Source: Gammaproteobacteria bacterium
GTDB lineage: Bacteria; Pseudomonadota; Gammaproteobacteria; Steroidobacterales; GCA-2729495
Direction: 5' to 3'
NCBI GenBank assembly: GCA_009692345.1
Contig: SHZI01000004.1
Location: forward strand, 1-56,450
DNA: 56,450 bases
The first letter of the stretch is position 1. Each line of letters opens with the position of its first letter. Below, piece after piece: positions 3,012 to 53,681 of the stretch. The notes under the pieces are model-generated. The model was not told where the DNA came from. It did not search any database and worked only from the letters and a program-made list of their open reading frames with translations. A program made the position numbers and the translations under genes.

Positions 3012-3065
3012 GTAGGAGCGCCTGTGGGCGCGATTGGAATTGATCGCGCCTAAAGGCGCTCCTGC
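3012..3065. repeat. REP-like palindromic element, copy 1
   Basis: An imperfect inverted repeat: gtaggagcgcc...gggcgcgat on the left and atcgcgcc...ggcgctcctgc on the right around a short AT-richer centre. The right half contains the TAG stop of the Irr-like gene and encodes its last residues (QERL). The left half abuts the tRNA-Thr promoter. It can form a long hairpin and could act as a terminator or mRNA stabiliser. Three related copies occur in the window. Confidence 0.88.
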
Positions 3066-3466
3066 AGCCGCCGCACCCGGATAAGCACCTCGACGCTCGC
3101 GGCCTGGGTCCCCTCCGGCAAGGTCGGGAGCCGCAGCAGTTCGACGTCCGCGGCATCGATGTCCCGGAGTTCGCCGGTTTCCTCATCGAGAAAGTGATGG
3201 TGGGCTGTCGTCGTGGAGTCGTACACGACCCGGCTGGGATGCACCGCGACCTCCCGCAGGATGCCCGCCCGGGACAGCAGATTGAGCGTGTTGTAGACCG
3301 TCGCCTTGGAGATGCGGCTCCCGGACTGACGGAGGGCCTGGAGCAACTGGTCTGCCGACACGTGACAGGGGCCGGCCAGCAGCAACATCCCGACCTCGAC
3401 CCGCTGGGGGGTGGGCTTTACCCCGTGGGCGCTCAGTGTGGCTTCGACGTCAGCCTTCAAGGTCAT
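3050..3466 (-). CDS. Fur-superfamily regulator, Irr-like
   Basis: The protein has 138 residues from the ATG at 3466; an upstream in-frame TTG at 3484 is less likely. The winged-helix N-terminus (GVKPTPQRVEVGMLL, then SKATVYNTLNLL) is typical of Fur proteins. The dimerisation domain carries the HHH motif (AHHHFLDEETGEL) and ends near VEVLIRVRR. It lacks the CxxC pairs of the structural zinc site of Fur, PerR and Zur. That combination resembles Irr-type iron/heme-responsive regulators, but no N-terminal heme-regulatory motif is visible. The terminal QERL and stop come from a REP-like element. It faces the pilus cluster divergently; its targets are unknown. Confidence 0.82.
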   Translation of the reverse strand: MTLKADVEATLSAHGVKPTPQRVEVGMLLLAGPCHVSADQLLQALRQSGSRISKATVYNTLNLLSRAGILREVAVHPSRVVYDSTTTAHHHFLDEETGELRDIDAADVELLRLPTLPEGTQAASVEVLIRVRRLQERL

Positions 3467-3555
3467 GGGTGAATAATAGCGCAAGTGCCGAAACTCGCTA
3501 GTGAGGCTGCTTTGTGCGCTGGCCGCATCCCGGACCTGCGGCTACCGTGCACCCC

Positions 3556-4083
3556 ATGCCCCGCTCGCCCGGCTTCACACTGCTCGAACTCCTCATCACA
3601 CTGGCCATCGGCGCGGTGCTCCTGACCCTCGCTGTCCCCGCATTTACCAGCCTGGTGCTCGACTCGCGGCTGACCAGTGCGGTGAACCGCTTCGTGCACG
3701 GGATGTACGTCGCCCGGCACGAAGCCCTGAAGTCCGGCGCCGACGTGGCGCTCTGCAGGAGTTCCAGCGGCAGGCAATGCATCCAGGCAGGGCGCTGGGA
3801 AACCGGGTTTATCGTCTTCGTCAACCGGGACCAGGACGACCCGCCCCGGGTCGATAGTGGCGAACCCATCCTGCAGGTGGAAGGCAGACTGCCTGCCGGC
3901 GCGATCCTGGCCAATCGCAATGCCTTTGTCTTCCGGCCCTGGGGCCGTTCCGTCAACGGCACCCTTACGTTCTGCGACCGGCGGGGCAACCCCAGTGCCC
4001 GGGCGGTCGTGGTGAGCTACACCGGCAGGCCCCGGGCCACCTCCGCGGGCGAAGCTAACGGTTCAGTGAAGTGTCCAGCCTAG
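3556..4083 (+). CDS. fimT: FimT/GspH-type minor pseudopilin
   Basis: The protein has 175 residues from the ATG that begins MPRSPGFTLLELL. The prepilin peptidase site is G|FTLLE, with glutamate at +5, followed by a long hydrophobic helix. The rest fits the GspH/FimT family, including a C-terminal segment FCDRRGNPSARAVVVSYTGR that closely matches the family end. Minor pseudopilins of this type prime type IV pilus assembly in the inner membrane. The longer ORF start is rejected because it would precede the leader by 14 residues. It is the first gene of the pilus cluster; no clear Shine-Dalgarno sequence precedes it. Confidence 0.85.
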   Translation: MPRSPGFTLLELLITLAIGAVLLTLAVPAFTSLVLDSRLTSAVNRFVHGMYVARHEALKSGADVALCRSSSGRQCIQAGRWETGFIVFVNRDQDDPPRVDSGEPILQVEGRLPAGAILANRNAFVFRPWGRSVNGTLTFCDRRGNPSARAVVVSYTGRPRATSAGEANGSVKCPA

Positions 4084-4210
4084 AAATTTGCATGGCCTAC
4101 AAAATTACTCTTCATCCCCTCCGCTGCGCCAGCCATCGGCCGGACAGATTCTCCCCGCTGTATCACGGCAGGATACGTCTCAGGCGCGTGGTGCGTGGCC
4201 GGCAGCTGCG

Positions 4211-4633
4211 GTGCGTATCCAGCAACAGGAAGAACAACGAGCACGGGGCTTCAGCCTCATTGAACCCATGGTGGTACGGGGCGTCGTGGCCATTGCCCTC
4301 GGCATCGGCGCGCCCCTCTTTGCCACCCTCGCGGCCAACAACCGCATGAGCAGTGCCAGCAACGATCTGGTCAGCAGCCTGCTGGCCGCCCGGAGTGAAG
4401 CCCTCAAGCGCCAGGTTACGGTGACGCTGTGTCCCACGCCCGCTGGCGCAGGCAACTGCGTCGCTGGCGGCAGCCTGGGAACGGGGTGGACCGTCTTCGT
4501 GGATCGCAATGCGGATGGGGCCATCAGCGCCGACGATGTCGTGATCCAGCAGCCTGGGGCGCTGGAGGCGGACCTTCGGGATGGCGTCACGGCGACGCCG
4601 ATACCGGGGCGGGGGTCGCCGCAGGTCGCTTGA
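4211..4633 (+). CDS. second FimT/FimU-like pseudopilin, probably degenerate
   Basis: An ORF continuing from 4088 contains a prepilin-like segment, RGFSLIEPMVVRGVVAIALG. I place the start at the GTG at 4211 (140 residues), which gives a short leader. The +5 glutamate is kept, but the usual ELMVVL is read as EPMVVR, putting a proline and an arginine into the export/assembly helix. The middle matches FimU-like proteins (RSEALKRQVTVTLCP, GTGWTVFVDRNADG). The expected C-terminal strands ending in ARAVVVS are missing and the frame stops early. Position before pilV fits fimU. It may be a pseudogene. Confidence 0.6.
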   Translation: MRIQQQEEQRARGFSLIEPMVVRGVVAIALGIGAPLFATLAANNRMSSASNDLVSSLLAARSEALKRQVTVTLCPTPAGAGNCVAGGSLGTGWTVFVDRNADGAISADDVVIQQPGALEADLRDGVTATPIPGRGSPQVA

Positions 4634-4723
4634 TTCAGAGTGGTCAACTGGGTCGTCAGCAACTCGTGCGCGACCGCGTCAGCCTTCAGTCTGACGCGAA
4701 TCCGCTCGGTGGTTGCTAGGACG

Positions 4724-5170
4724 TTGGTTGTTAAACACAAAGGCTTCACGCTCGTCGAGGTGCTGGTGGCCCTCGTCGTCATGTCGGTGGGCATCCTGGG
4801 CATCGCGGCGCTTTACCTGGAGGGTCTGCGGGCCGGCCGCACCGCCCTCTACCGGACGACGGCGGTCAACCTGGCAGCAGACATGGTGGATCGCATTCGG
4901 GCCAACCCCAACGCGAGGCTCGCCTATGCCGGCACGGGCCCCGGGGCCGACGGTGGCTGTGTCAACGGCCCGGTCAACTGCACGGCCGAGCAGCTCGCCG
5001 ATGACGACTGGTGTGGCTGGAGCAACCAGCTGGCTGCCCAGCTGCCCGCGGGCGCCCGTGGCGAGATCGGGATTGCGGGGGCGACACCGGTCACCTACAC
5101 CATTACGGTGGCCTGGCCAGAAATTGGCCAGGAAGAGCCGGCCACCTACTCCCTGGGTGTCCAGCAGTGA
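4724..5170 (+). CDS. pilV: type IV pilus modification/minor pilin PilV
   Basis: The mature part begins after the prepilin site KG|FTLVEVLVALVVMSVGILG and carries the family segment NLAADMVDRIRANP, with cysteine-containing loops later. The start is uncertain: TTG at 4724 gives a 148-residue protein with a seven-residue leader (AGGA lies 2 bp upstream), whereas GTG at 4640 would add 28 residues of no recognisable origin. PilV is one of the minor pilins forming the priming complex. Its stop overlaps the GTG of pilW. Confidence 0.85.
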   Translation: MVVKHKGFTLVEVLVALVVMSVGILGIAALYLEGLRAGRTALYRTTAVNLAADMVDRIRANPNARLAYAGTGPGADGGCVNGPVNCTAEQLADDDWCGWSNQLAAQLPAGARGEIGIAGATPVTYTITVAWPEIGQEEPATYSLGVQQ

Positions 5171-6141
5171 AGCGCGGGTTGCAGCTCGGCATGACGCTCA
5201 TTGAACTGACGGTGGCCATGGCCATCGGTTTGTTCCTGATCGGTGGCGTCCTGTATGTCTACAGCCAGAGCAAGAACAGCTATCGCGCGGGCGACAGCCT
5301 CGCCCGGCTGCAGGAAAGCGCCCGCTTTGCCCTGGATACTCTCGAGCCCGACGTTCGCCTGGCTCGCTACTGGGGCCTCAACTCCGAGCCCGCGCGCATC
5401 ACGGTCCCCGCCGGCATCGCCGTGACCTGCAACGGTATCGCGCCGGATTTTGACCCGCTGGATCTCGCCGATGTGGTGACAGTGCGGGACGACACCTACG
5501 ACCTGAACTGTGTGTCCTTCAACGATGCGCCCCGGGCCGGAAGTGACGTGCTGATCCTGCGCCATGCGGAACCCTGGCGGGCAGGGCTTCAGCCTGCGCC
5601 GGACCCCCAGCGCCTGCAGATCCAGACCACCCTGGCCCAGGGCACTCTGTTCAGGGATGGAGTGCTGCCCCTCACCCTGCCCGTGGGCACCGGAGCCAGC
5701 ATCAATAACGTCGCCATCAATATCTACTACGTCAGTAATCAGTCGAGTTTCGCTGCGGAGCTGCCTTCATTGCGCCGGCTGGTCCTTGGGCCTGCCGGGG
5801 ACTTTGACAACCAGGAAGTCATACCGGGCGTCGAAAACCTGCAGGTGCAGCTCGGGATGGATACCGATGGCGATGGGGACGTGGACCGTTATGTGGATGG
5901 CAATCACCCGCTGGTGACCCCGGGAGCTCCTGGCTTTGCCCCGAATGGCCGGGTAGTCGCCGTGCGCCTGTGGATGCTGGTTGGCACCCCTGCCGATGCT
6001 CCGGCCTGGGTGGACGAGCGCCGCTATGCCACGCCGGATGCCGACCTGGGCGATCTGGTCGCGGGCTCAGCTGACTATCCCTCGACCTACCGCCGCCTGC
6101 AGATCTTCAAAACCATTTTTCTCAGCAACGAGGGCGCGTAG
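5167..6141 (+). CDS. pilW: type IV pilus assembly protein PilW
   Basis: Starting at the GTG that overlaps the pilV stop, the protein is 324 residues. The prepilin leader ends at LG|MTLIELTVAMAIGLFLIGG, with glutamate at +5 and the typical YSQSKNSYR after the helix; further on RLQESARFALDTLEPDVRLA is characteristic of PilW. The ORF track start at 5011 lies inside pilV and is not credible. PilW is a minor pilin of the initiation complex and sits directly before pilX, as in other gammaproteobacteria. Confidence 0.92.
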   Translation: MKRGLQLGMTLIELTVAMAIGLFLIGGVLYVYSQSKNSYRAGDSLARLQESARFALDTLEPDVRLARYWGLNSEPARITVPAGIAVTCNGIAPDFDPLDLADVVTVRDDTYDLNCVSFNDAPRAGSDVLILRHAEPWRAGLQPAPDPQRLQIQTTLAQGTLFRDGVLPLTLPVGTGASINNVAINIYYVSNQSSFAAELPSLRRLVLGPAGDFDNQEVIPGVENLQVQLGMDTDGDGDVDRYVDGNHPLVTPGAPGFAPNGRVVAVRLWMLVGTPADAPAWVDERRYATPDADLGDLVAGSADYPSTYRRLQIFKTIFLSNEGA

Positions 6142-6594
6142 ATGCCGACCCACGCCACGCCTCCCAACCGGCAGAAGCAGTCTGGCGCCGCCCTCATCAT
6201 CAGCCTGATTCTGCTGATGGTGCTGACCGTGCTGGCGATTTCCACCATGCGGACGGCGAGCCTGGGTTTACTCATGGCAGGCAACGCCCAGTACCGGGAA
6301 ACCGCGTTCAACCTGGCCCAGTCCGGGATTGACGCCGTCCTGCGCCGGGGCGACCCGGGCGTCCTGAGCGACTGCACGGCACCAACGGCCGATCCCGTAG
6401 TGGTGGTCCCGGAACTTGGCGGCCGCTACGCCACGACGACGTGCTATCGGGGCGAGTCCATCACCCCGGGCAACAGCCTGCCCCGCGTCCCCACCTTCAA
6501 CTACGAAGTGGCCTCGACCGGCATGACCGATCAACGGGAGGCCCGGGTTCGGGTCGTCCAGGGCTACGCCATCACGGGAGCCTCCGGTCGATGA
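6142..6594 (+). CDS. pilX: type IV pilus assembly protein PilX
   Basis: The protein has 150 residues. The PilX_N signature QSGAALIISLILLMVLTVLAI at residues 13-33 is followed by GNAQYRETAFNLAQSGIDA. The ATG directly follows the pilW stop and the 3' end overlaps the next gene (ATGA). Known PilX proteins are minor pilins that work with PilY1 in pilus assembly. At 150 residues it is short for the family. Confidence 0.9.
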   Translation: MPTHATPPNRQKQSGAALIISLILLMVLTVLAISTMRTASLGLLMAGNAQYRETAFNLAQSGIDAVLRRGDPGVLSDCTAPTADPVVVVPELGGRYATTTCYRGESITPGNSLPRVPTFNYEVASTGMTDQREARVRVVQGYAITGASGR

Positions 6595-7046
6595 ACAGGC
6601 TTGCCCGCAACCGGGCCGTGACCAGCAGGCCAGGAACCATGGGTCTGGCGGCGCTGCTCCTCCTCACCTGGGGGCTGCCCGCCGCTGCCTCGCTGGGCAC
6701 CATTGAACAGGCCTACGAGCTGGCGCGCAGTGACGTGCAGCTGCCGGGCCGGCCTGAGGGCAGCCTGACGGTCCGTCCCTGTCCCACCTGCAAGCCGGTC
6801 CTGCTCAGGGTGACCACCGCCACGGGCTGGTTCATTGCCCCACAGACCCGGAAGGCCGCCGGTCAGCCCGCCCTGCTCGCGGCCTATAAAACGGCGGCGG
6901 CCAACCCGTCCACCCTGGTCTATGTCTATTACGAGCCCCAGACCAGGCGAGTGAAGCGGATCGTGCTGGACGTGCCGGCAGCGCCGTCGGCCAGGCCAGC
7001 GCCGTCGGCCAGGCCAGCAACCCAGGCCACGGAAGCCCGGCAATGA
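6591..7046 (+). CDS. exported protein of unknown function between pilX and pilY1
   Basis: This 151-residue frame is coupled by ATGA overlaps on both sides (pilX stop and pilY1 start). An N-terminal hydrophobic segment (residues 17-35, ending AAASLG) predicts export. The body has a Cys pair, RPCPTCKPV, and the segment VYVYYEPQTRRVKRIVLD. The C-terminus contains the tandem repeat APSARPAPSARPA, encoded by a direct repeat of about 15 bp. I do not recognise the family. Its position suggests a periplasmic partner of PilX or PilY1. The ORF track start at 6441 is inside pilX. Confidence 0.75.
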   Translation: MNRLARNRAVTSRPGTMGLAALLLLTWGLPAAASLGTIEQAYELARSDVQLPGRPEGSLTVRPCPTCKPVLLRVTTATGWFIAPQTRKAAGQPALLAAYKTAAANPSTLVYVYYEPQTRRVKRIVLDVPAAPSARPAPSARPATQATEARQ

Positions 7047-10000
7047 GAACCGTCCAGCGTGTTGCAGCCGTTCTGCTGGCCTGCCTGGCTCTGACTGCCC
7101 GGGCGGATGATTCGGAGTTGTTCCTGAGTGGCCCGGCTGCCGGAGTCGCCCGGGCCAACGTCCTCTTCATTATCGATACCTCCGGCAGCATGGACACGCT
7201 GGTGGCGACCCAGGCGACCTACAGCACCAGCCAGACCTTCACGGGTTGCTACGACCGCAACGCGCTGTACTTCTCCGCCACTGCATCAACCCCACCCTGT
7301 GACAGCCCCAACGTCCAGCCGAAGGCGGTCAACCGCTGCGCAGCCTCCCGCCAGCAACTCAACCAGGTGGGTTACTACTCCGACTTGCTCCTGGGTTGGG
7401 ACGTCCTGACGGGGAGCCGCCCGAACGGCGCGCTGGAGTGCGCGAGTGATCGCGGGGTCGATGGCAACGGCTCGGGCAGCCCGGGTTTTGCCGCCAACGG
7501 CCCCGACGAACCCTGGGCCGCGACCGATGCCAGCGAACCAGCCTGGCCCGCTCAGTACACGGTCTATGACGGCAACTGGCTCAACTGGCGCACTAACCCC
7601 CCCACGGTGCAGAAGAGCCGCCTCGACATCGTCAAGGAATCGGTCAACGCCCTGGCGGCCGGCCTGGAGGACGTGAACATCGGTCTGATGCGCTTCAACG
7701 GTAGTGAAGGCGGCGCGGTAATCGCTCCGCTGACCGACATCAACACCTCCCGGACTGCCTTCGTTGCCGCGGTGAACGCCCTGAACCCGGCCGGCAACAC
7801 GCCCCTGTCCGAAACCCTCTACGAAGCGGCCCAGGTCTTTCGGGGTGCCAACGTGGACTTTGGCAATACGGGCCCGGTCCGGAGTGTGGCGGGATCCCGA
7901 GTCGGTAACACGCTCACTTCCCTGCTCTACCGTTCGCCCCTCACCGAGTCCTGCAGCAAGAACTTCATCATCCTGCTGACGGATGGCGAACCGACTGCTG
8001 ACGGCGACGCGGTCAGCAAGATTACCGCCCTGCCGGACTTCGCCTCGGTGGTGGGGACCACCTGCGACGGCACCGGCGAAGGCCGCTGCCTGGACGACCT
8101 CGCGGCCTACCTGGTGCGCCACGACCTGGACGACACCCTCCCCGGCCTGCAGAACGTTGTCACCCACACCATCGGCTTCGAAGCGGACTTCCCCCTGCTC
8201 GTCAGCACGGCGACCCGGGGCGGCGGTGAGTACCACCTGGCTGACAGCACCGCGTCGCTGTCCACGGCGCTGAGCGGCATTGTGCTGTCGATCTTCGACA
8301 ATGCGGCGACTTTCGCCGCGCCCGCCGTGCCGGTGAATGCCTTCAAGCGCAGCCAGAACCTGCATGACGTCTACGTGTCGGTCTTCCAGCCCACGGAAAC
8401 CGCCCGCTGGTTTGGCAACCTCAAGAGGTACCGGTTCTCTGGTGGCCAGCTCGTCGGGAAGGACGATCGCCCTGTGATCGACCCCGTAACGGGACTCTTC
8501 GCCCGGGACGCCTTCAGCTTCTGGTCGGCAACACCGGATGGTGACCGGGTTGCCGAGGGTGGTGCGGCCAGCCGCCTGCCGGCTCCGGCGGTACGGCGCG
8601 TGTTTACCAATCTTTCCGGCACTGCCCTCTCTCTGCTCGACCCCGACGATGCTGGCGTTCAGGCTGCGCTGGCTGCGGTGCCCGTGGCCGAGCGCGCAGC
8701 CGTCATTGAATGGGCTCTGGGCCGGGACGTGGGGGACGTGGATCAGGATGGGAACGTGATGGAAGCCCGCCGGGATCTGGGCGATGCCTTCCACGTCCAG
8801 CCACTGACGGTGCTCTACGGCGAGACTGTCGACAACCCGGACGCCGCCGTGTTCGTGGCCACCAACGATGGCTACCTGCACTCCTTCGAGGCCGCCACGG
8901 GGGTAGAGAACTGGGCCTTCGTTCCCGGCCGGTTACTGCATGGTCTCTACCCTCTCTACCGGAATGCGGCTGCCGCGGCGAAGACCTACGGGCTGGATGG
9001 CGAGATCAACCTGGTCATCAGGAACGATGACGGTCGTCCGGGGCTGTCGGGCAACGAGCAGGCGATCCTCCTCTTTGGCATGGGACGGGGCGGCGATGCG
9101 GTGTATGCCGTCGACGTGACCGACCCGGCTGCACCCGCGCTGCTCTGGGAGAAGAGCAGCAGTGACAGTAGCTTTGCCGACCTCGGCCAGACCTGGTCGC
9201 CGCCGGCGGCTGCGCGGGTCGACATCGGCGGGACCGTCCGGGACGTGGTGGTCTTCGGCGGCGGGTATGACCCGGGCCAGGACCACGGCCCGTTCCGGCA
9301 GGACACGGTCGGCAATGCCATCTACATGGTTGACCTGGCCGATGGCCGCCGGGTGTGGAGCGCCGGTAGTGACGCCGCAGGGGGGCCCCACGATCTCGAA
9401 CTGCCCCGGATGAACTACTCCATTCCCGCCCCGGTGAAGCCGCTGGACCTCAACGGTGACGGCCTGGCTGAGCGCTTCTACGTGGGCGATATGGGCGGGC
9501 AGTTGTGGCGCTTTGACATCGTCAATGGCGAATCGGCGGCAACGCTCGTTGAGGGTGGGGTTCTGGCCTCGCTTGGTGGTGCCGCAGTCGCTACACCCAC
9601 CACTGCAGACCTGCGCCGGTTCTACGCAGCTCCCGACGTGGTACCCGTCATCCTGAACAACCAGCTGCTGATCTCGATCAACATTGGCTCCGGCTATCGG
9701 GGCCACCCGCTGGATACCGGGATTGCCGAGGCCTTCTTCGCCGTCCGGGACTTCAACGTATTCGGCGTCATCGACCGGACTGACTACTCCACGTCGCCGG
9801 TCTCGGTGCATCAGTTGCTCGATATCACCACCGACCTCGAGCCTGAACTGCCATTTGCTGCCGCGGGGTGGCAGCTCCGCCTGAACCAGGGCCCCGGTGA
9901 GAAGGTACTGGGCGAAGCGCTGACGGTGGACAACACCACGTTCTTCACCTCCTTTGCGCCGGGCCAGACACCGAGCGGGTGCGTCAGCGGCGCCGGCATC

Positions 10001-10261
10001 AATCGCCTCTACGCCATCAGTGTCCTCGATGGACGGCTCCGCACGAACGTCGACAGCGGCGTCGACGCGCCCCTGACTCTCGCGGACCGCTCGCGAGTCC
10101 TGAACACAGGGATCCCGGTGACGGATGTGAATCGGCTGAATACGGAGACGGGCCCGACCATCTGCGCGGGGACCCAGTGCCTCACGCCGGAAGACATGGC
10201 GCGGCTGCCGCGGCGCGCCGGGACAAAACGCACCTACTGGTTCCAGCGTGAAGGCCCTTAG
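7043..10261 (+). CDS. pilY1: type IV pilus tip adhesin/assembly protein PilY1
   Basis: The protein has 1072 residues, a signal peptide (cleavage near ARA-DD, residue 21), a von Willebrand A domain whose MIDAS motif is DTSGS at residues 45-49, then a C-terminal PilY1 beta-propeller. The propeller holds the calcium-binding loop DLNGDGLAE followed by VGDMGGQLWRFD, near residues 801-825. PilY1 is secreted, promotes pilus extension with the minor pilins, and mediates surface contact. The start overlaps the preceding stop (ATGA), and the last 14 bp overlap pilE. Confidence 0.95.
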   Translation: MRTVQRVAAVLLACLALTARADDSELFLSGPAAGVARANVLFIIDTSGSMDTLVATQATYSTSQTFTGCYDRNALYFSATASTPPCDSPNVQPKAVNRCAASRQQLNQVGYYSDLLLGWDVLTGSRPNGALECASDRGVDGNGSGSPGFAANGPDEPWAATDASEPAWPAQYTVYDGNWLNWRTNPPTVQKSRLDIVKESVNALAAGLEDVNIGLMRFNGSEGGAVIAPLTDINTSRTAFVAAVNALNPAGNTPLSETLYEAAQVFRGANVDFGNTGPVRSVAGSRVGNTLTSLLYRSPLTESCSKNFIILLTDGEPTADGDAVSKITALPDFASVVGTTCDGTGEGRCLDDLAAYLVRHDLDDTLPGLQNVVTHTIGFEADFPLLVSTATRGGGEYHLADSTASLSTALSGIVLSIFDNAATFAAPAVPVNAFKRSQNLHDVYVSVFQPTETARWFGNLKRYRFSGGQLVGKDDRPVIDPVTGLFARDAFSFWSATPDGDRVAEGGAASRLPAPAVRRVFTNLSGTALSLLDPDDAGVQAALAAVPVAERAAVIEWALGRDVGDVDQDGNVMEARRDLGDAFHVQPLTVLYGETVDNPDAAVFVATNDGYLHSFEAATGVENWAFVPGRLLHGLYPLYRNAAAAAKTYGLDGEINLVIRNDDGRPGLSGNEQAILLFGMGRGGDAVYAVDVTDPAAPALLWEKSSSDSSFADLGQTWSPPAAARVDIGGTVRDVVVFGGGYDPGQDHGPFRQDTVGNAIYMVDLADGRRVWSAGSDAAGGPHDLELPRMNYSIPAPVKPLDLNGDGLAERFYVGDMGGQLWRFDIVNGESAATLVEGGVLASLGGAAVATPTTADLRRFYAAPDVVPVILNNQLLISINIGSGYRGHPLDTGIAEAFFAVRDFNVFGVIDRTDYSTSPVSVHQLLDITTDLEPELPFAAAGWQLRLNQGPGEKVLGEALTVDNTTFFTSFAPGQTPSGCVSGAGINRLYAISVLDGRLRTNVDSGVDAPLTLADRSRVLNTGIPVTDVNRLNTETGPTICAGTQCLTPEDMARLPRRAGTKRTYWFQREGP

Positions 10262-14974: not shown

Positions 14975-15016
14975 GGGATGAAGCGCGCCAAAAGCGGGGA
15001 TTATAAGGTCGGCCGA

Positions 15017-16672: not shown

Positions 16673-16693
16673 GCGGGCGCCAGTCTACCGACC

Positions 16694-16723
16694 TTGACTT
16701 ACCCGGGGTTAAACCTGAAGAAT
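16694..16723 (+). promoter_or_regulatory. probable rpsT promoter
   Basis: TTGACT is followed after 18 bp by AAGAAT, leaving a leader of roughly 50 nt before the GTG start of rpsT. The -35 is close to consensus and the -10 matches at four of six positions. Confidence 0.55.
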
Positions 16724-16782: not shown

Positions 16783-17057
16783 GTGGCGAACACCAAGTCA
16801 GCAGCCAAGCGCGCCAAACAAGGCGAACGTCGTCGTCAGCATAATGTGGCCCTCCGCTCGCGGATGCGGACCGCCATCAAGAAGGTGGTCAAGGCCATCG
16901 AGGCCGGCGATACGGCTGAAGCTGCCAGCGCTTTCAAAGCCGGTGCCGCTGAGGTAGCGAGCATGGTGACCAAGGGCCTCACGCACAAGAACAAGGCTGC
17001 CCGGCACAAGAGCCGCCTGAACAAAGCCGTCAAGGCGCTGGCCACCAAGAAGAAGAA

Positions 17058-17061
<4 letters not shown>
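16783..17061 (+). CDS. rpsT: 30S ribosomal protein S20
   Basis: The protein has 92 residues, MANTKSAAKRAKQGERRRQH onward, matching S20 throughout and ending in a lysine-rich tail. S20 binds 16S rRNA in the 30S body. The start is GTG, behind GGAAG. A non-AUG start for rpsT is known elsewhere and is tied to autoregulation. The TAG stop is itself part of a REP-like palindrome. Confidence 0.97.
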
Positions 17062-18293
<1,232 letters not shown>

Positions 18294-18322
18294 TCAAGCC
18301 AAACCCGGCTTGGGTCCTGAAT

Positions 18323-23758: not shown

Positions 23759-24340
23759 ATGCAGAGCTTCGACAGACCCACCATCGCTCCCAGGGAACCG
23801 TCGCCCTGGGTCCTGCGCTTTGCAGGACTCATTCCCGCCGGGGAACCCGTGCTGGACGTGGCCTGCGGGACGGGTCGCCACGCCCGACTCCTGGCGGCTC
23901 GGGGCCACCGGGTAACGGCTGTCGACCTGGACAACGACGCACTCGGGAACCTGGCTGGCGTGCCTGGCATACAGGTCCTGCAGAAGGATCTGGAAATCCC
24001 CCCCTGGCCCTTCGGGCCGGCGAGTTTCGCCGGCATCGTGATTACCAACTACCTGCACCGGGCCCACTTTCCGGCTCTGGCCGCGACGCTGCGGCCAGGG
24101 GGTGTGCTGATCATCGAGACCTTCGCCGCCGGCAACGAGCGCCTGGGGCGCCCCCGAAACCCGGCGTTTCTCCTGGCCCCCGGCGAACTTCTGGCGGCCC
24201 TGGGCGGCGCGCTGCAGGTGGTCGCCTACGAACACGGCACTGACGAGTTACCCCGCCCCGCCGTGCGGCAGCGGCTCGTCGCGGTACGCCAGGCAGAACC
24301 AGTGGCGCTGCCTGCACCGCGCCCGCAGGAGCGCCCGTAG
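23759..24340 (+). CDS. class I SAM-dependent methyltransferase
   Basis: From the ATG at 23759 the product has 193 residues; an in-frame TTG at 23741 is less likely. SAM-binding motif I is VLDVACGTGRHA, followed by the acidic VTAVDLDNDAL and a later LRPGGVLIIETF strand. It resembles small TehB-like methyltransferases; the acceptor is unknown. The last residues (PRPQERP) and the stop codon are supplied by a REP-like element. Confidence 0.85.
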   Translation: MQSFDRPTIAPREPSPWVLRFAGLIPAGEPVLDVACGTGRHARLLAARGHRVTAVDLDNDALGNLAGVPGIQVLQKDLEIPPWPFGPASFAGIVITNYLHRAHFPALAATLRPGGVLIIETFAAGNERLGRPRNPAFLLAPGELLAALGGALQVVAYEHGTDELPRPAVRQRLVAVRQAEPVALPAPRPQERP

Positions 24341-24403
24341 GAGCGCCCGCAGGAGCGCCTTTAGGCGCGATGACTATCGATCGCGCCTAAAGGCGCTCCT
24401 GCG
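24324..24403. repeat. REP-like palindromic element, copy 3
   Basis: The core ggagcgcctttaggcgcgat is mirrored by atcgcgcctaaaggcgctcc around tgactatcg. Two extra copies of the gcaggagcgcccg unit extend the left arm. The methyltransferase stop lies in the left arm and the cytochrome gene stop in the right arm, so the element joins two convergent genes. Confidence 0.92.
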
Positions 24404-25223
24404 GGCGGCCGGCCATGATGCCGCCGTGGAGCGTCACACCCTCCGTCGGCTTCGAGGTCCACAGCTGTTCTGCAAAGCGGGGAATCGCCATGGCGGCGAT
24501 CGGGAAGCACTCCACCAGCTGGGACGGCTTGCCCGGAATACCGTCCAGGGCGTAGCAGAAAAACTCCATGCCCTTGCGCTCGACGGTGTTCCAGAAACCG
24601 CGGATGGATTTCTCGCTGGAGGACACCGAGCCGTCCGCATTGAAGTAGGTGTCGAAACGCACCTCGCCGGCTGGGGTCTCCATGCGGTTGCGGGTGGTGT
24701 TGGTCATGAGGTGGTTGAAGAAGCTCGGGTAGCGCTCGGCCAGGGGTTTGCTGCGATCAATCGTCGCCGTGGCGCTCGCCGCGGCGGGCCTGGGCCAGTC
24801 TGCCGCACCGGTCTCCAGCAGCATGAAGGAGATCAGCGCCGTGCGGTCGGCTGCCGGCACCGGCTCGGGGATCAGCATCCGCGTGCCGGGAATCAGTTTC
24901 TCCGGCCCGGCGACGAACTCCCAGACCCGGGGCACGTCCCAGCTAAAGCCGGCGCTACTGAGAGCGGGCGAGGCAGCGAATCCCGGGCTGGTGCCGGCCT
25001 TGCGGCCGATGAGGCCCCAGAGATTCGGGCCCAGCAGATTACTGCCCCCGTCCGCCAGCGTGTGGCAGGCACTGCAGCGCTGGAGAAACGCCGTCCGGCC
25101 CTTCTGGTAGTCCGCGGCGACCAGCTGGTCCCGCGTGGGCATCGCCTCGGCCAGGCTGACGCTGCTGTGCAGGCTACCCACCACGCCACTGAGCAGAAGA
25201 GGCACGAGCAGTGAGCGGTGCAT
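24387..25223 (-). CDS. exported c-type cytochrome with an unassigned C-terminal domain
   Basis: The protein has 278 residues, with a signal peptide of about 27 residues. The heme c site is CSACH at residues 50-54, with LLGPNLWGLIGRKAG after it and a candidate axial Met in PGTRMLIP, so residues 35-135 form a class I cytochrome c. Residues about 150-270 form a second region (RYPSFFNHLMTNTTRNRMETPAGEVRF) that I do not recognise. It is presumably a periplasmic electron carrier. The C-terminal RPQERL and stop come from the REP-like element. Confidence 0.8.
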   Translation of the reverse strand: MHRSLLVPLLLSGVVGSLHSSVSLAEAMPTRDQLVAADYQKGRTAFLQRCSACHTLADGGSNLLGPNLWGLIGRKAGTSPGFAASPALSSAGFSWDVPRVWEFVAGPEKLIPGTRMLIPEPVPAADRTALISFMLLETGAADWPRPAAASATATIDRSKPLAERYPSFFNHLMTNTTRNRMETPAGEVRFDTYFNADGSVSSSEKSIRGFWNTVERKGMEFFCYALDGIPGKPSQLVECFPIAAMAIPRFAEQLWTSKPTEGVTLHGGIMAGRPQERL

Positions 25224-40351: not shown

Positions 40352-40355
40352 GGCC

Positions 40356-41764: not shown

Positions 41765-41774
41765 GACAGCGGCC

Positions 41775-42533: not shown

Positions 42534-42553
42534 GGTTGCTAGAATACCCGCCC

Positions 42554-46147: not shown

Positions 46148-46162
46148 TTTTTTCAGTTTTTT
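46131..46162 (+). terminator. possible terminator between convergent genes
   Basis: AAGGT-ACCGG-ACCTT forms a short hairpin followed by two T-runs (agttttttcagttttttt). The stem is only 5 bp, so strength is doubtful. Confidence 0.45.
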
Positions 46163-46626: not shown

Positions 46627-46661
46627 CCTCAGCCCTCCAGAAATCGAGTCAGGCCCACGGC

Positions 46662-47306
46662 CTACGGCGCCGTCCGGGTCCGCTCCCGAAAAAACTCTAT
46701 GACCGCCGGTAAAATGGAAATGATGATGATGCCGATCACTACCGCCGAGAAGTTTTCCTTGACGAGCCGCACGTTGGCGAAGAAGTACCCGGCGGGAACC
46801 AGCAGCAGCACCCACAACATGCTGCCTGCCACGTTGTAGAACTGATAGCGGAGGTGCGCCATCTGGCCCACGCCCGCAGCAAAGGGCGCCACTGTCCGGA
46901 CAATCGGCACGAAGCGGGCAATGACGATGGTCTTGCCGCCGTAACGGGCGAAATAGGCCTGGGTCTTGTCGAGGTACTTCTGATTGATCAGCCCCGGAAA
47001 CCGGCGCTGCAACTCTGTGCCGGCCAGACGGCCAACCCAGTAGTTGACCGCATTACCGAGAATAGCTGCGGCAATGAGCAGGACGCAGAGCGCCAGGACA
47101 TCGAGCCGCCCCGAGGCGGCAACTGCCCCGGCAGCGAACAACAGTGAATCGCCGGGCAGCAGGGGCATGACCACGAGTCCCGTCTCGCAGAAGATGATGA
47201 GAAAGAGGATCGCGTAGATCCAGATGCCGTAGTTGGCTACGAGCTCATCCAGATGGACATCCAGGTTCAGGATGAAATCGACGAGGTACAGCAACAGGTC
47301 AACCAA
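46662..47306 (-). CDS. DedA family membrane protein
   Basis: The protein has 214 residues from a TTG start; no ATG suits the conserved N-terminus. The DedA hallmarks are IFCETGLVVMPLLPGDSLLF near residue 39, GNAVNYWVGRLAG near 85, and ARFVPIVRTVAPFAAGVGQM near 129, with a re-entrant helix and flanking membrane segments. DedA proteins act as lipid (undecaprenyl-phosphate or phospholipid) transporters/scramblases. It precedes the DUF411 gene by about 35 bp. Confidence 0.92.
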   Translation of the reverse strand: MVDLLLYLVDFILNLDVHLDELVANYGIWIYAILFLIIFCETGLVVMPLLPGDSLLFAAGAVAASGRLDVLALCVLLIAAAILGNAVNYWVGRLAGTELQRRFPGLINQKYLDKTQAYFARYGGKTIVIARFVPIVRTVAPFAAGVGQMAHLRYQFYNVAGSMLWVLLLVPAGYFFANVRLVKENFSAVVIGIIIISILPAVIEFFRERTRTAP

Positions 47307-47316
47307 GACGTCCAGT

Positions 47317-48288
47317 TTAACCGCCGAACGCGGCTGCTGCCGCGTGGAGGGTCTCGCAATTTATCGCTGCGACGTGGCGCGCCTCGACACCGCTGGCCTT
47401 GAGGGTTTTCCGGATGATGCCCTCCAGATTGGGCCGCTTGGCCGCGGGTCCGTCCTCCGCCCCCAGGCCCCCGCCGAACTCAATGAAGGTCGTCACCTGC
47501 TGCGCGATAGCCGTATTCAGGCAGCCGACCCAGTTCACGGGATTGAACAACTGGAAGAACAGTCGCGTCCGGATCGAATCAGGTTCGTGCAGTACGCCGG
47601 TGTAGTTGGAGAGTACCCCGACGGTGGGTGCGGAGAACGTCACCCGCTCCAGGTCGTCCCGGAACAGCAGGGCCGCCGTCACCATGAAATAGGTATGAAA
47701 GGCCCCTTCAGTCGCCAGGCGAATGGCGCGCTTCCGGGGCATGCGCTCGGCGAGATCCAGGGCCAGTGCGTCCAGATCGCTGTCACGCCCGCCAACCACA
47801 GTCTGGTCTGGGAGGTTACAACTCGCGACCTGGCAGAAGTGGCGATCCGCCAGAGGCCGCGCCGTGTCAATGTCCAGGGTGAGCGCCAGCATGCCGCCTT
47901 CGCCGTGCTCGCCCATCAACTCGCCCCGGCGCCGCACCAGTCGGAGCGCATCCTCGAAACCCAGTGCGCCAGCCGCCACCAGCGCGCTGTACTCGCCAAG
48001 GCTGTGGCCTGCGGCCAGCGCCGGCTGAAGCCCGCCACCGGTCAGTTCCTCAAACACCCGCAGGCAGGCGATCTCGTGGGTCAGGAGTGCCGGTTGCGTA
48101 TTGCGGGTGAGGCCAATCTCGCCAGCCGGATCAGCAAAGGACAACTCCCGGAGATCGAAGCCAAGCACTTCGTTGGCCCGGTCGTAAACCTGGCGGGCGG
48201 CAGCAAACTCCTGGTAGAGATCGCTCCCCATGCCCCGGTACTGGGAACCCTGGCCGGGAAACACAAACATGACGCGCTGGTCGCTCAC
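47317..48288 (-). CDS. fabD: FabD-like malonyl-CoA:ACP transacylase
   Basis: From the GTG at 48288, behind GGGAGAG, the product has 323 residues. It has the N-terminal FVFPGQGSQYRGMG, the nucleophile elbow GHSLGEYSAL near residue 98, an Arg block, and the His in EGAFHTYFM near 199. It loads malonyl on ACP for fatty acid synthesis. No other fab gene is near; the P450/FAAL pair lies 3.4 kb away. It may be a housekeeping paralogue or serve a specialised lipid pathway. The ORF track extension to 48588 overlaps avtA and is unlikely. Confidence 0.88.
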   Translation of the reverse strand: MSDQRVMFVFPGQGSQYRGMGSDLYQEFAAARQVYDRANEVLGFDLRELSFADPAGEIGLTRNTQPALLTHEIACLRVFEELTGGGLQPALAAGHSLGEYSALVAAGALGFEDALRLVRRRGELMGEHGEGGMLALTLDIDTARPLADRHFCQVASCNLPDQTVVGGRDSDLDALALDLAERMPRKRAIRLATEGAFHTYFMVTAALLFRDDLERVTFSAPTVGVLSNYTGVLHEPDSIRTRLFFQLFNPVNWVGCLNTAIAQQVTTFIEFGGGLGAEDGPAAKRPNLEGIIRKTLKASGVEARHVAAINCETLHAAAAAFGG

Positions 48289-48397
48289 CGACTCTCCCTG
48301 AGGCTGATGCTGTGCCTCGTACCTGGCTGGCCGCAGAGGATACGGGTGACTCCCTGCGGCGACAACCGGGGCGCCGCCATCGCCGGTGCCAGCAGGG

Positions 48398-49672
48398 TCA
48401 GTGCTGCCAGCGGCGGGCCTCATCGCCGAGAATCGCAATGCCCCGCCGGACGGTTTCCTCATCACGAGCGTAGGTAATTCGCAGGCACTGATCCCGGTGC
48501 GGCCAGTGCGCCTCTGGTGGCTCGCTGAGCCCCGGGAAGAAGTGGTGGCCCGAGAGCACCAGCACACCGCGAGCCTTGAGGCGGGCATACAGCTCAGCGC
48601 TGGTGATCGAGAGCCGCGGCAGCCACAGCCAGAGAAACAGAGCGCCCTCCGGGGTGTGCACGTGCCAGTCGCAGCCGTCCAGCGCCTCCCGCAGCCAGGC
48701 CAGGGCCTGCAGGGCCCGGCGTTGATAGAAGGGCCGGATCACCTCCCGGGACAGGCGCACGATCTCGCCGCTGGCCACCAGGTCCCGGACGAGGACAGGC
48801 CCGACGCTCCCCACGGCGAGGCTGGTTACTGCCGTCATGGCCCCGAGTGCCGTAATGATCTCGGGACGGGCGATGACCATCCCGGTGCGCAGGCCGGGCA
48901 GTCCGAGCTTCGACAGGCTCATGCAGACAATGACATTCTCGTCCCAGATCGGCGTGGCGGCGGTGAACACGATCTGGGGAAACGGCAACCCGTAAGCACT
49001 GTCGAGAATCAACGGCACTTCGAGGCGGCGGGCCAGCGCCCGGAGGCGGTGGACTTCATCGTCGGTCAGCACGTTGCCCGTCGGGTTGGTGGGCCTCGAG
49101 GCACAGATCGCCGCCACAGTGCCGGGCAGGTCACTGGTGCCATCGAGGGCAGCAAAATCGACGTGGTACTTGAACAGACGCTCCGGCAGATGCTCGATGA
49201 CGGGCCGTTGCGCGACGAACAGATCCTGCGTGACGCCCAGGTCACCATAGCCAATGTACTCGGGCGTCAGGGGCAAGAGGATGCGCTGCTCACCGCCAGC
49301 AGCCGACGGTCCGGCCAGCAGATTGAACAGCAGGAAGAAGCCCTGCTGGCTGCCGGCTGTCAGGGCAATGTTCTCGGGGCCGACGTCCCAGCCGCACTCC
49401 CGTCGCAGGAGCCCTGCCAGCGCGGACCGGAAGGTCTGTTCACCCAGCGGGTCCGGGTAGTCCGCCACCAGGCGCCGGAAGTCCCGGTCGTCATCGAGCA
49501 CCGCGTGGAACCGTTCCCGGAACACGGCGAGCATCTCGGGTATGTGGGCCGGATTGCCCCCACCCAGCATCAGCGGCGGGACGGCCGCGGCCATGGCGGC
49601 GCCGAGATCGGTCATCAGCTCGACCGCCCCTGCGGGGCGGGTGAAGCGCTGGCCAAAGCAGGAGAATTTCAT
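48398..49672 (-). CDS. avtA: AvtA-like valine-pyruvate aminotransferase
   Basis: Starting at MKFSCFGQRFTRPAGAVELM (ATG at 49672) the protein has 424 residues. It is a fold-type I PLP enzyme: PPLMLGGGNPAHIPEM near residue 33, SRPTNPTGNVLTDDE, and the Schiff-base lysine in SLSKLGLPGLRTGM near 253. The N-terminus closely matches E. coli AvtA (FSLFGDKFTRHSG as remembered). It would move amino groups between alanine and 2-oxoisovalerate. It is divergent from a TetR gene, with a palindrome between them. Confidence 0.88.
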   Translation of the reverse strand: MKFSCFGQRFTRPAGAVELMTDLGAAMAAAVPPLMLGGGNPAHIPEMLAVFRERFHAVLDDDRDFRRLVADYPDPLGEQTFRSALAGLLRRECGWDVGPENIALTAGSQQGFFLLFNLLAGPSAAGGEQRILLPLTPEYIGYGDLGVTQDLFVAQRPVIEHLPERLFKYHVDFAALDGTSDLPGTVAAICASRPTNPTGNVLTDDEVHRLRALARRLEVPLILDSAYGLPFPQIVFTAATPIWDENVIVCMSLSKLGLPGLRTGMVIARPEIITALGAMTAVTSLAVGSVGPVLVRDLVASGEIVRLSREVIRPFYQRRALQALAWLREALDGCDWHVHTPEGALFLWLWLPRLSITSAELYARLKARGVLVLSGHHFFPGLSEPPEAHWPHRDQCLRITYARDEETVRRGIAILGDEARRWQH

Positions 49673-49700
49673 GGGCTTCAGCTCGTTGAGCGGCACGCTA

Positions 49701-49728
49701 CAACACTGTTCGATATGATACAGTGCTG
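49701..49728. promoter_or_regulatory. putative TetR operator
   Basis: CAACACTGT and ACAGTGCTG are inverted, matching at eight of nine positions around a 10-bp spacer (tcgatatgat). The site lies between the divergent avtA and tetR genes, where self-regulating TetR proteins usually bind. Confidence 0.6.
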
Positions 49729-49751
49729 TTTCATCGATCAGATGCCACCCC

Positions 49752-50369
49752 ATGCCCGCTCCCGCCACTACGGTCCGTCTGCCAGCCACCGATTCGGCCA
49801 GCCAGAAGATCCGCTCCCGGCAGGATGGTACCCGGTCCCGCATCCTGACCGAGAGCGCGGCCCTGTTCGTGGGCCAGGGCTACGAACACGTCAGCGTGGA
49901 ACAGATCCTCGCGGCAGCCGATATCGCCCGCAGCAGCTTCTACCGCTTCTTTGCCAACCGTGAAGAGGTGCTGACTGCCATCATCAGGCCCGTGTTTGCC
50001 GCCGGCCTCACCCACCTTGAAGCCGTCACGGCCCGGGATGCCCGGGGGATTCTGGACGGGATTTTTGCCACCTATCTGGCCCTGTGGGCCGCTAGCCCCG
50101 CCGCGCTTCGCCTCGCCACGCGCACGGGTGGCGTCTACTTCGACCTGTTCCGGGACCTGCACACCCCCTTCCGGGAGCGGATCACCGCACTTCTGCGCCT
50201 GGCAGAGCCTGGTGGCCAGCTACTCAACAACAGCGCCGAGTACTCGGCGCGCCTGCTGGCCCGGGCAGCCGTGCCGGTGATGGAGGTCTACCACCGGGAC
50301 GTCCGTTTCGCCGCCCTGTTCCAGTCGACAATGCGGGGCCTGTTGCTGAGGCCGGGACCACCGGTGTAG
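49752..50369 (+). CDS. TetR family transcriptional regulator
   Basis: The product has 205 residues. The helix-turn-helix region is SRILTESAALFVGQGYEHVSVEQILAAADIARSSFYRFFANREEVL at about 29-75, canonical for TetR. The ligand-binding helices are variable and give no clue to the effector. The gene lies between avtA (divergent) and the TonB-dependent receptor (115 bp downstream), either of which may be its target. Confidence 0.92.
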   Translation: MPAPATTVRLPATDSASQKIRSRQDGTRSRILTESAALFVGQGYEHVSVEQILAAADIARSSFYRFFANREEVLTAIIRPVFAAGLTHLEAVTARDARGILDGIFATYLALWAASPAALRLATRTGGVYFDLFRDLHTPFRERITALLRLAEPGGQLLNNSAEYSARLLARAAVPVMEVYHRDVRFAALFQSTMRGLLLRPGPPV

Positions 50370-50426
50370 GCTCGCGGAATATGTCTGCTTAAGCCTGTTC
50401 GCTTCTTTGCTTTCAATAAACAGGGT

Positions 50427-50470
50427 CCGGCACAAGCGCCCACAGACCCCGGCACAAGCGCCCACAGACC
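50427..50470. repeat. perfect 22-bp tandem duplication upstream of the TonB receptor
   Basis: ccggcacaagcgcccacagacc is present twice head to tail, ending 13 bp before the receptor ATG. It is in the probable leader or promoter region. Confidence 0.92.
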
Positions 50471-50483
50471 AAGGTGTAACGGT

Positions 50484-53400
50484 ATGGCGTCCTCCCGCAT
50501 CCGCCTGTCCCTGGCCGTGACGGCAGCAGTGACCTTAAGCCCCCTGCCCCTGCTTTTGCCCGCTACCGGCTGGGCGCAGATCGAAGAAATCATAGTGAGC
50601 GCCCGGAAGCGGGCGGAAAGCCTGCAGGAGGTGCCCATTGCAGTGGACGTGCTCACGTCGGAGCAGCTGGAGCGCAAGTCCATCAACAGCCTTGCTGACA
50701 TCACCAAGAGCCTCTCCTCCGTGGAGTTCGACGAGGGCGCCTCGAGGAGCGACACGCGCATCACCATCCGTGGTCTCTCGCCCACCCGGGGCCGGCAGAA
50801 CGTGGCAGTGCTGGTCGATGGCATCGACGTCTCCACGGAAGCCATCAGCAACTCGGGCGGCGGCTCGCTGCTGAACACCCGGATTGTCGACATCGAGCGG
50901 ATCGAAGTCGTGAAAGGCCCCCAGCTGGCGCTTTACGGCCGGAGCGCCTTCGCCGGCGCCATCCAGTACGTCACCAAGGACCCGTCGGAAGTTTTCGAGG
51001 CCACGCTGAACGCAGACGCCAGTCTGGAAGACCAGTACGACGCCTCCCTGAGCATGAGTGGCCCCGTGCTGGGTGACAAGCTGGGCCTGCGCTTCAACGC
51101 CGCCTGGTGGGACGAGCAGGGCTATTACGAGAACTCGCTGACGGGCAACGATCTCGGCACCGATACGGGCTACGCCTTCGGCCTGACGGCCAAGTCCCAG
51201 GTCACCGACACCTTCACGCTCAAGTTCCGTGCCGAGTACGAGGATCAGCAGGTGGGGCCCGCCCCCACCGCGTTCCTGAAATTCAACGCCGAGACGGCAT
51301 TGCCGGAGACGACGACCAATCCCTTTACTGATCCGGTCTCCGGGACCCAGTATCCGGCCCTCTTCCGGTGCTTCGAAAAGATTGCCAGCAAGACCTGGAA
51401 CCAGGCGCTCGTGGACCGCAATAACCGGCTCTACGATCCGAACTACACGCCGACGGGGCCCAATCCGGCCCTGCCCAACGCGCTCTACAGCAGCCCCTAC
51501 TGCGAAACCGCGGTGGCGAGCTTCCTCGGCGCACCCCGGAACCTCAAGAAAGGTGACATCGCGGTCGCCACGAACCCGTTTACCAATGACGACTACGAGG
51601 GCATCGACCGGCAGCTGCTCCGCTTCTCCCTGGTCTCGGAGTGGGACGTGGGCTCGGGCACTCTCAGTGCCCACACGGGCTACATCCACGAGCAGTCCAA
51701 GGAAGATGCGGACAACGGCAAATTCGGCTTTGCGCCGGCGCCGGATTCGATATCGCCACTGACGGGCGCCGCCTACACGGACGGCGGCGTCAATGCCTTC
51801 ATCCTGAATACGGACAAGCTGACGACCCAGTTCAGCCAGGAAATCATGTTCCGTACCAACTACGATGGACCCCTCCAGGCCACCCTGGGCGCGCTCTACT
51901 GGCAGGAAGACGTGGGCAACGCCAGCAACTCGCTCACCGTCCAGGGCTCCGGTAGCCATTGCGCCTGGTCCAGCCTGAGCGGGATCACGTTTGATCAGCT
52001 TGGCTTTGTCGAGCCCGGCACCGGCTGCTACGGCTACACGGAACGGGCCGTAGGGCCACTCATCCGGGGCGGCTTCAATTTCGGCGACGGGACGCCCTAC
52101 GACGGTATCGGGCAGTACAAGGAATCAACCCCGGCGGACCGCAATACCGAACACCGATCCTTCTTCGGCCAGCTGGAGTACGAGATCACCCCCAGCGTGA
52201 ACGCGATCTTTGAGGGTCGCTACAGCGTTGAGACCGTCGAAGTCATCGGGCCGGTGTTCCTGAAGCCCACGGCCTCCGGCGGCCCCGGCAGCTGGAACCC
52301 CTGTGGCATCTTCTTCCGGCCCTGCACCGACAGCTGGATGTTCGGCGCGCCCAACTCGTTCTCCACGGCCGCGCACTCCTTCGGTGGCCCCCTCTACAGC
52401 CAGGCCGCCTTCGAGAACTGGTACGACTCCTACAACCCCAATGCCCTCATCGACGCGAACCGCCCGGAACTGGGCCTCCTGCGGGACATCATTCCGTCGC
52501 AATGCCGGAACGACCAGGGCGTCATCGACCGGCTGGCCAACGTGGACGCGGGCAATCCGGATCAGTTCGACCTCTTTAACCCGTCCTGCAACGGCAGCAT
52601 TTCCAGGGACGACAACTGGTTCTCCCCCAAGCTCACCGTTGCCTGGCAGGTCAACGATGATCTGAATGCCTACGCGTCCTGGTCCATTGCCGAGAAGCCG
52701 GGTGGCTTTTCCACCCTGAGTATTGGCTCGAGCGGGTTGAACCGGGAATTGCTCGAGTTCAAGCCCGAGAAGCTGACGGTCTGGGAGGTCGGTGCAAAGA
52801 GCCAGTGGCTGGATCAAACCCTGGTAGTCAATACGGCGGCGTTCTTTCAGGACTTCACGGACAAGCAGACTCTGGTCTCCGTCCTGAACGCTGCCGGCGA
52901 CCGGCTGGTCAACAAGCTGGAGAACCTGGACGGCGCGCAGGTTCTTGGCCTCGAGATGGATGTGTCGTGGGCGCCCATGACCCCGTTCCTCGGGGGCAAC
53001 TGGAAGCTGACCGGCGGCTATACCTACCTGGATGCAGAGTATGTCGACGCGCCGGGCGAGAACACCTCCTTCACGTTCATCGCTGGCGCGGGCAACTGCG
53101 CGCCCAAGATCGTGACCGCTCAGAGCGGCAATGCCTCCGTGGTCTGCGTGGTCAGCCTGGATGGCAAGCGCCTGGAAGATGCGCCGGCGGGCAAGTTTGT
53201 GGGCACCATCGGCTACGAGCTGCCGCTGGCGGACGACCTGACCTTCTTCGCTGAGACCGACCTGCTCTGGGTGGCCAAGCGCTATATCGAGGCCACCAAT
53301 GAGAACTGGGTGGAACCCGACACCAACGTCGATTTTATCGCCGGCCTGCGCACAGAACGCTGGGAGGTGATGGGTTACGTCTCCAACGTCTTCGACGACG

Positions 53401-53630
53401 ACACCATTGCTTCGGCGGCGGGTGGCCCGAGCCTGTCCTGCTGCTTCACACTGGGCAGTGGCATCGACCTGGTCAACCAGCAGACGCCAGTAGCCAGTCC
53501 GTCGACCGGGGAACCGGGCAAGACGGTAACCCTGGAACTGCCCCAGTTCCGCTTCGCTTTCGCACCGGATCCCCGGGTTATCGGCATCCGGACCAAGTAC
53601 AAGTTTGGCGGCGAGCAGGGGCGGCGGTAG
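50484..53630 (+). CDS. TonB-dependent outer-membrane receptor
   Basis: The protein has 1048 residues with a signal peptide ending near WAQ (residue 33). The TonB box region is EEIIVSARKRAESLQEVPIAV, followed by the plug (DVLTSEQLERKSINSLADI, RGLSPTRGRQNVAVLVDGIDV, ERIEVVKGPQLALYGRSAFAGAIQYVTKDP) and a long beta-barrel with extended loops. It lacks the usual aromatic C-terminus: it ends VIGIRTKYKFGGEQGRR. The ligand is unknown; this type is common in bacteria that import steroids, aromatics or complex carbon. Its stop codon lies in a REP-like element. Confidence 0.94.
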   Translation: MASSRIRLSLAVTAAVTLSPLPLLLPATGWAQIEEIIVSARKRAESLQEVPIAVDVLTSEQLERKSINSLADITKSLSSVEFDEGASRSDTRITIRGLSPTRGRQNVAVLVDGIDVSTEAISNSGGGSLLNTRIVDIERIEVVKGPQLALYGRSAFAGAIQYVTKDPSEVFEATLNADASLEDQYDASLSMSGPVLGDKLGLRFNAAWWDEQGYYENSLTGNDLGTDTGYAFGLTAKSQVTDTFTLKFRAEYEDQQVGPAPTAFLKFNAETALPETTTNPFTDPVSGTQYPALFRCFEKIASKTWNQALVDRNNRLYDPNYTPTGPNPALPNALYSSPYCETAVASFLGAPRNLKKGDIAVATNPFTNDDYEGIDRQLLRFSLVSEWDVGSGTLSAHTGYIHEQSKEDADNGKFGFAPAPDSISPLTGAAYTDGGVNAFILNTDKLTTQFSQEIMFRTNYDGPLQATLGALYWQEDVGNASNSLTVQGSGSHCAWSSLSGITFDQLGFVEPGTGCYGYTERAVGPLIRGGFNFGDGTPYDGIGQYKESTPADRNTEHRSFFGQLEYEITPSVNAIFEGRYSVETVEVIGPVFLKPTASGGPGSWNPCGIFFRPCTDSWMFGAPNSFSTAAHSFGGPLYSQAAFENWYDSYNPNALIDANRPELGLLRDIIPSQCRNDQGVIDRLANVDAGNPDQFDLFNPSCNGSISRDDNWFSPKLTVAWQVNDDLNAYASWSIAEKPGGFSTLSIGSSGLNRELLEFKPEKLTVWEVGAKSQWLDQTLVVNTAAFFQDFTDKQTLVSVLNAAGDRLVNKLENLDGAQVLGLEMDVSWAPMTPFLGGNWKLTGGYTYLDAEYVDAPGENTSFTFIAGAGNCAPKIVTAQSGNASVVCVVSLDGKRLEDAPAGKFVGTIGYELPLADDLTFFAETDLLWVAKRYIEATNENWVEPDTNVDFIAGLRTERWEVMGYVSNVFDDDTIASAAGGPSLSCCFTLGSGIDLVNQQTPVASPSTGEPGKTVTLELPQFRFAFAPDPRVIGIRTKYKFGGEQGRR

Positions 53631-53681
53631 GAGCGCCGACCGGCGCGATCAGCAACAGCTCGCGCCGGTCGGCGCTCCTAC
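53627..53681. repeat. REP-like palindromic element, copy 4
   Basis: gtaggagcgccgaccggcgcgatc pairs almost perfectly with ctcgcgccggtcggcgctcctac around agcaacag. The left TAG is the stop of the TonB receptor and the right arm supplies the TAG of the convergent aldehyde dehydrogenase gene. The stem exceeds 20 bp, so it could terminate both transcripts. Confidence 0.93.

Follow-up and report, generated by a model that had tools for sequence, protein, structure and literature searches.

Stop codons coincide with the TAG of GTAG-type REP elements at gene ends in a gammaproteobacterial genus

The closest described relatives of the elements analyzed here are the GTAG-tagged REPs, whose termini were reported by Di Nocera et al. 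(2013; PMC3733652) to "often provide" TAG stop codons. In other RAYT systems GTAG acts as a recognition or guide motif and cleavage takes place at CT or CA dinucleotides, not at GTAG (PMC8266576). In E. coli, REPs placed up to 15 nt from stop codons stall ribosomes and lower translation, according to Liang et al. (2015) as cited in PMC12306157. The use of a REP head as a stop codon has been known since 2013, and it is unusually strong in the genome described below. New here are an orthologue test, the stop-loss origin of protein tails, the occupancy of stops and the swapping of repeats at conserved addresses; beyond Di Nocera et al. (2013), no earlier report testing orthologues was found in the open-access literature, outside which most subscription papers lie. 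For the question of how REPs select and retain their sites this genus offers a sharp test case: its species range from REP-rich through REP-poor to REP-free, a single address (the TAG stop) dominates, the RAYT locus is conserved and the swapping of elements at fixed addresses can be seen.

The window, a stretch of 56,450 nucleotides, is contig C29 of a 2.34-Mb draft assembly that is 92% complete. A preliminary description had recorded four palindromes and seven abutting gene ends in it, and direct reading confirmed them all. Based on Pfam, the seven flanking genes encode a Fur family protein, S20, Obg, a methyltransferase, a cytochrome c, a TonB receptor and an aldehyde dehydrogenase. The first element (3012..3065) is a REP pair (REPIN) with a GTAG head at 3012-3015 on the plus strand and a GCAG head at 3062-3065 on the minus strand. 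The Fur/Irr-like gene (3050..3466, minus strand) stops inside it at TAG 3050-3052 and ends in QERL; in the related genome G002 its stop is four codons earlier, at the head position. The second element (17058..17159), as seen by direct reading and RNA folding, is a pair with a longer spacer and GTAG heads at both ends. The stop codon of rpsT (ribosomal protein S20; 16783..17061, plus strand), TAG 17059-17061, is the head TAG, as it is in G002, while obgE (17088..18185, minus strand) continues through one REP arm, read in the GTA frame, and has its last 23 residues and its TGA stop, 72 nt in, within the element. At 24325..24402, direct reading and folding revealed a cluster of truncated tandem heads (GCAG, GTAG, GCAG) followed by an inverted unit with a GCAG head. 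The methyltransferase gene (23849..24340, plus strand) reads the CAG of the first head as Q and uses the second tandem head's TAG as its stop, leaving the tail QERP, and the cytochrome c gene (24387..25223, minus strand) has the tail QERL, read through a GCAG head, where G002 has GTAG and stops four codons earlier. The fourth element (53627..53681) is a pair with the loop GACC and GTAG heads at both ends; one head TAG is the stop of the TonB-dependent receptor gene (50484..53630, plus strand) and the other that of the aldehyde dehydrogenase gene (53678..55108, minus strand). Six of the seven stops are a TAG within the element, with the element-encoded end of obgE as the exception, and the first description of the tails holds: the Irr-like protein and cytochrome c end in QERL, the methyltransferase in QERP. 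Elsewhere in the window, the 16-bp GGTGTGGTGCCGGAGA is repeated three times in exact tandem at 2854-2901, and the last copy overlaps a tRNA-Thr(CGT) at 2890-2965 (minus strand) at its 3' (CCA) end; this triplicated 3' end is perhaps an integration scar.

The unit of the elements is the 22-bp GTAGGAGCGCCNNNNGGCGCGA, mostly arranged as inverted pairs (REPINs), with some single or clustered copies. Allowing one mismatch, the 22-mer had 86 forward and 92 reverse matches in the draft genome (178 in all), whereas its reversed pattern, used as a control on the same assembly with the same tolerance, had none in either direction (0+0), so the matches are not due to chance. The commonest arrangement was the '+-' pair of 54-56 bp. 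The elements share the attributes by which GTAG-type REPs are recognized: an imperfect palindrome of 20-40 bp, a terminal GTAG, high copy number and inverted pairs capable of forming a hairpin. Together with a cognate RAYT in the lineage, these data bear out the initial suspicion of a REP-like family. Between 1 and 226 matches to the 22-mer were counted in genomes of the same genus, and 0-2 in other genera of that family. The majority of the REPs lay outside called genes, that is, mainly in intergenic positions. Gaps with a REP were convergent in 56 cases, co-directional in 42 and divergent in 5 (n=103), compared with 40, 270 and 95 among gaps without one (n=405), and the heads pointed at gene ends, in most cases within convergent gaps. 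In contig C62 (L068 2819-7715), several REP clusters fell inside two called frames of more than 1,700 codons each; either these REPs lie in coding sequence or the frames were miscalled.

The positions of stops relative to heads were measured in 624 kb made up of the window, the surroundings of elements and additional contigs; element-centred stretches were complemented by whole contigs or 20-kb pieces, and gene ends were called throughout by a simple codon-usage script. With up to two substitutions allowed, this sample contained 141 GTAG and 41 GCAG heads. Of the GTAG heads, 95 faced the 3' end of a gene at a distance of 80 nt or less, and for 72 of these (76%) the stop fell exactly at the head's TAG (bases 2-4, position +4), whereas one or two would be expected from uniform placement; most of the remaining ones were located 1-21 nt behind a native stop. 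The use of the head TAG as a stop and the concentration of copies at gene ends, both proposed from the window, thus hold in the sampled 624 kb, and the opposite pattern, copies mainly between genes with stops that do not overlap them, was looked for and is not what these counts describe. The preliminary claim that this concerns every protein gene touched by an element does not hold genome-wide: about a quarter of such heads follow a native stop or have a gene reading deeper into the element. In the less biased stretches the stop lay at the head in 21/26 cases in the window genome, 40/55 in G002 and 6/6 in G003; the elements in the sampled stretches of G004, G006 and G007 were too few for a rate. 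At GCAG heads, seven gene ends were found at +16, in the same frame as +4. Heads in the stop frame were GTAG in 80 cases and GCAG in 7, against 66 and 33 elsewhere (p 3e-5); the T of the head is retained where the head serves as stop. Among REP-free genes of the window genome, 33% end in TAG.

We consider it probable that the elements establish themselves and persist at gene ends, which often already had a TAG, hence the match between head and stop. They belong to the GTAG type of REPs and REPINs already known and are associated with the RAYT of the genus (Y1, IS200/IS605-like); a single trinucleotide would double as the stop of the gene and as a piece of the head recognized by the RAYT. RAYT-driven insertion or exchange at (Y)GTAG would create the match, and purifying selection against insertions elsewhere may assist it.

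A RAYT gene, whose search had been suggested at the outset, was indeed found, intact and REP-flanked in G002 and as a pseudogene in the window genome. G002, G004 and G006 share a common locus in which the RAYT lies between REP pairs and its own stop is a head TAG; the gene is intact in G002, where the product passes the NCBIfam model NF047646 (139.6 bits, cut-off 80), and forms an open frame at the same locus in G006 and G004. The copy of the window genome (contig C79, L033 856-1290) is likewise located between REP pairs, with its N-terminal part lost and one TAA nonsense codon. Since this gene is broken and its G002 orthologue intact, the REP population may persist without an intact transposase of its own. 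No Y1 transposase was found in G007, which is practically REP-free (one 22-mer match). Among the contigs searched, RAYT matches came mostly from Pseudomonas and other Proteobacteria, at 46-56% identity, and none from this genus. Two more Y1_Tnp genes (L031 1471-2175 and L032 1462-2343) have no flanking REPs; as similar Y1_Tnp genes are present in relatives, these two are probably unrelated to the GTAGGAGCGCCNNNNGGCGCGA family.

Occupancy separates the stops from other sites. REPs occupied 21 of the 44 GTAGs at stop codons in the window genome and 39 of 67 in G002, against 13/130 and 21/211 of the other intergenic GTAGs. In both genomes roughly one G-TAG stop in two is thus occupied. The base before the head was a pyrimidine in 78%, equally at stop and non-stop heads, compared with 54% at REP-free TAG stops. 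The 10-base core differed between our stretches and G002 in 38 of 73 orthologous heads, with flanks 93.7% identical. These differences often involve whole blocks (GACC for TTTA; GCC-GGC for GCG-CGC) with the stem still paired, which is hardly point mutation and suggests that repeat cores were exchanged between copies while the address stayed. A further reading, possible if on the unlikely side, is that G-TAG stops are the address of the REPIN population, where the RAYT system would install or re-install elements at about half occupancy, the stop being shared with transposase recognition. Concerning exact pre-insertion sites, 49 clusters of the window genome had both flanks in the G002 stretches and only 6 of these sites looked empty there; several of the six carry remnants such as GTAGGA and look like deletions. 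No clean empty/occupied pair that would reveal the insertion target was found between the two genomes, most sites being common to both.

Predicted RNA folds were strong: -44, -49 and -52 kcal/mol for three elements (-43.8, z -9.2, for 3012..3065 and -51.5, z -10.3, for 53627..53681) and -61 kcal/mol for the cluster at 24325, with the stop codon in or beside the stem base. Direct reading of the four elements and a scan around 53627-53681 gave no T-run, and a strong hairpin that lacks one is not a classical intrinsic (Rho-independent) terminator. By analogy with the E. coli REPs, an effect on translation termination or on the mRNA 3' end is plausible. Such an effect could account for the coincidence in the absence of any targeting, if insertion were broadly random and selection kept the hairpins that start at a stop as useful to the mRNA 3' end or to translation termination. 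The enrichment of convergent gaps (56/103 gaps with REPs, 40/405 without), the stem that begins directly at the stop, the T retained at stops and the lowered translation attributed to stop-proximal REPs of E. coli (Liang et al. 2015, as cited in PMC12306157) agree with this. Yet a hairpin 1-10 nt behind any stop should do equally well, and exact overlap exceeded such placement by 72 to 14; the flank preference before the head was also the same at stop and non-stop heads, and Pseudomonas, with the same kind of REP, showed the coincidence in only 5/30. We regard selection on randomly placed hairpins as doubtful.

The preliminary description had also proposed that the element replaces native 3' ends, landing in or just behind the last codons and supplying a new stop and tail. 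The 23 element-encoded residues of ObgE speak for this (the end is the same in G002, and in G003 ObgE also ends inside an element), as do genes 6 and 9, which are about 4 residues shorter than their element-free counterparts in G002, and the TGA or TAA in about half of the element-free same-position orthologues. The proposal was examined with 81 proteins having a stop at +4 or +16 and orthologous ends from G001-G007. In G002, 48 orthologous ends also had an element and 44 of them stopped at the same residue. Against element-free orthologues, genes with a REP stop ended at the same residue in 26/56 cases (46%) in G001, G004, G005 and G006 and in 16/37 (43%) in G007, and the REP-free genes taken as baseline did so in 10/27 (37%) and 7/18 (39%), respectively. 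Ends within 3 residues were found for 82% and 86% of the former and 93% and 83% of the latter. As the ends agree as often as in REP-free genes, the elements shifted gene ends no more than ordinary drift, and wholesale replacement is not supported by this comparison. TAG was, moreover, the stop of 19/45 same-position element-free orthologues against 15/86 of other genes (p 0.003; G002 and G003 left out), and of 8/17 against 16/137 in the nearer group with one vote per gene (p 0.001). About half of the nearer same-position orthologues end in TAG versus 7-18% of other genes, the other half in TGA or TAA. This excess argues that the TAG predates the element in a good share of the genes, if not provably in every one, and makes replacement an unlikely explanation. 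It was absent from the outgroup G007 (4/16 or 5/17 versus a background of 30%). For some genes, such as 14 and 16, all element-free relatives have TGA or TAA and the TAG may have come with the element, and an element-free TAG in G004 could be the trace of lost elements. We rejected the idea that high TAG use as such represents scars of lost elements: REP-free G007 also has 30% TAG, and there is no clear GAG excess behind REP-free TAG stops. Orthologues need to be checked before an element that seems to "provide" a stop is taken to have replaced the end of a gene.

As to the tails themselves, in genes 15, 49, 51, 59, 75 (Irr-like) and 78 (cytochrome c), the G002 stop is at the head position, 4 codons before that of the window genome. 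Because most of the G002 genes still stop at the head TAG, the tails of the window genome are mostly secondary; those of the QERL/QERP type come from stop loss in the head (TAG to CAG, once TCG), after which reading runs 4 codons to the next in-frame TAG of the element. The receptor's tail QGRR is likewise explained as read-through of a decayed extra head that is still the stop in G002. ObgE is the exception, with a true element-encoded tail. Gene calling might itself have produced the coincidence, by extending frames into the repeat up to its TAG. This is hardly credible despite the simple codon-usage script, because the proteins match their orthologues, element-free ones included, to the last residues and because the TAG, which only one frame in three meets, is the stop for 72 of the 75 gene ends that lie within an element behind a GTAG head.

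The family resembles the GTAG-tagged REP superfamily (PMC3733652), notably Pseudomonas GTAG-1, in its GTAG head, short palindrome, single or inverted-pair arrangement and RAYT link, as well as in its intergenic location, mostly at convergent or co-directional gene ends, with a head that often gives the TAG stop. It differs in having its own core, confined to one genus among the genomes searched. It also differs from the Pseudomonas GTAG REPs in the frequency of stop coincidence, about 76% here and 5/30 there when measured alike in 55 loci around related RAYTs. In the Pseudomonas loci (L292-L371) many heads, 64 of the outward ones counted, were GTGG and not GTAG, and such heads are unable to act as a TAG stop. 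With the REPIN/BIME and RAYT systems (Nunvar 2010, PMC2817692; Bertels and Rainey 2011, PMC3116915) it shares the inverted REP pairs and the REP-flanked RAYT of G002, G004 and G006, whereas the RAYT of the window genome is a pseudogene and cores appear to be exchanged at fixed addresses between species. Finally, the stop-proximal REPs of E. coli, as far as Liang et al. (2015) is represented in PMC12306157, likewise place a stable hairpin right behind the gene end; unlike them, the elements of this genus include the stop codon itself, which by sequence and predicted fold is part of both the repeat and the stem base.
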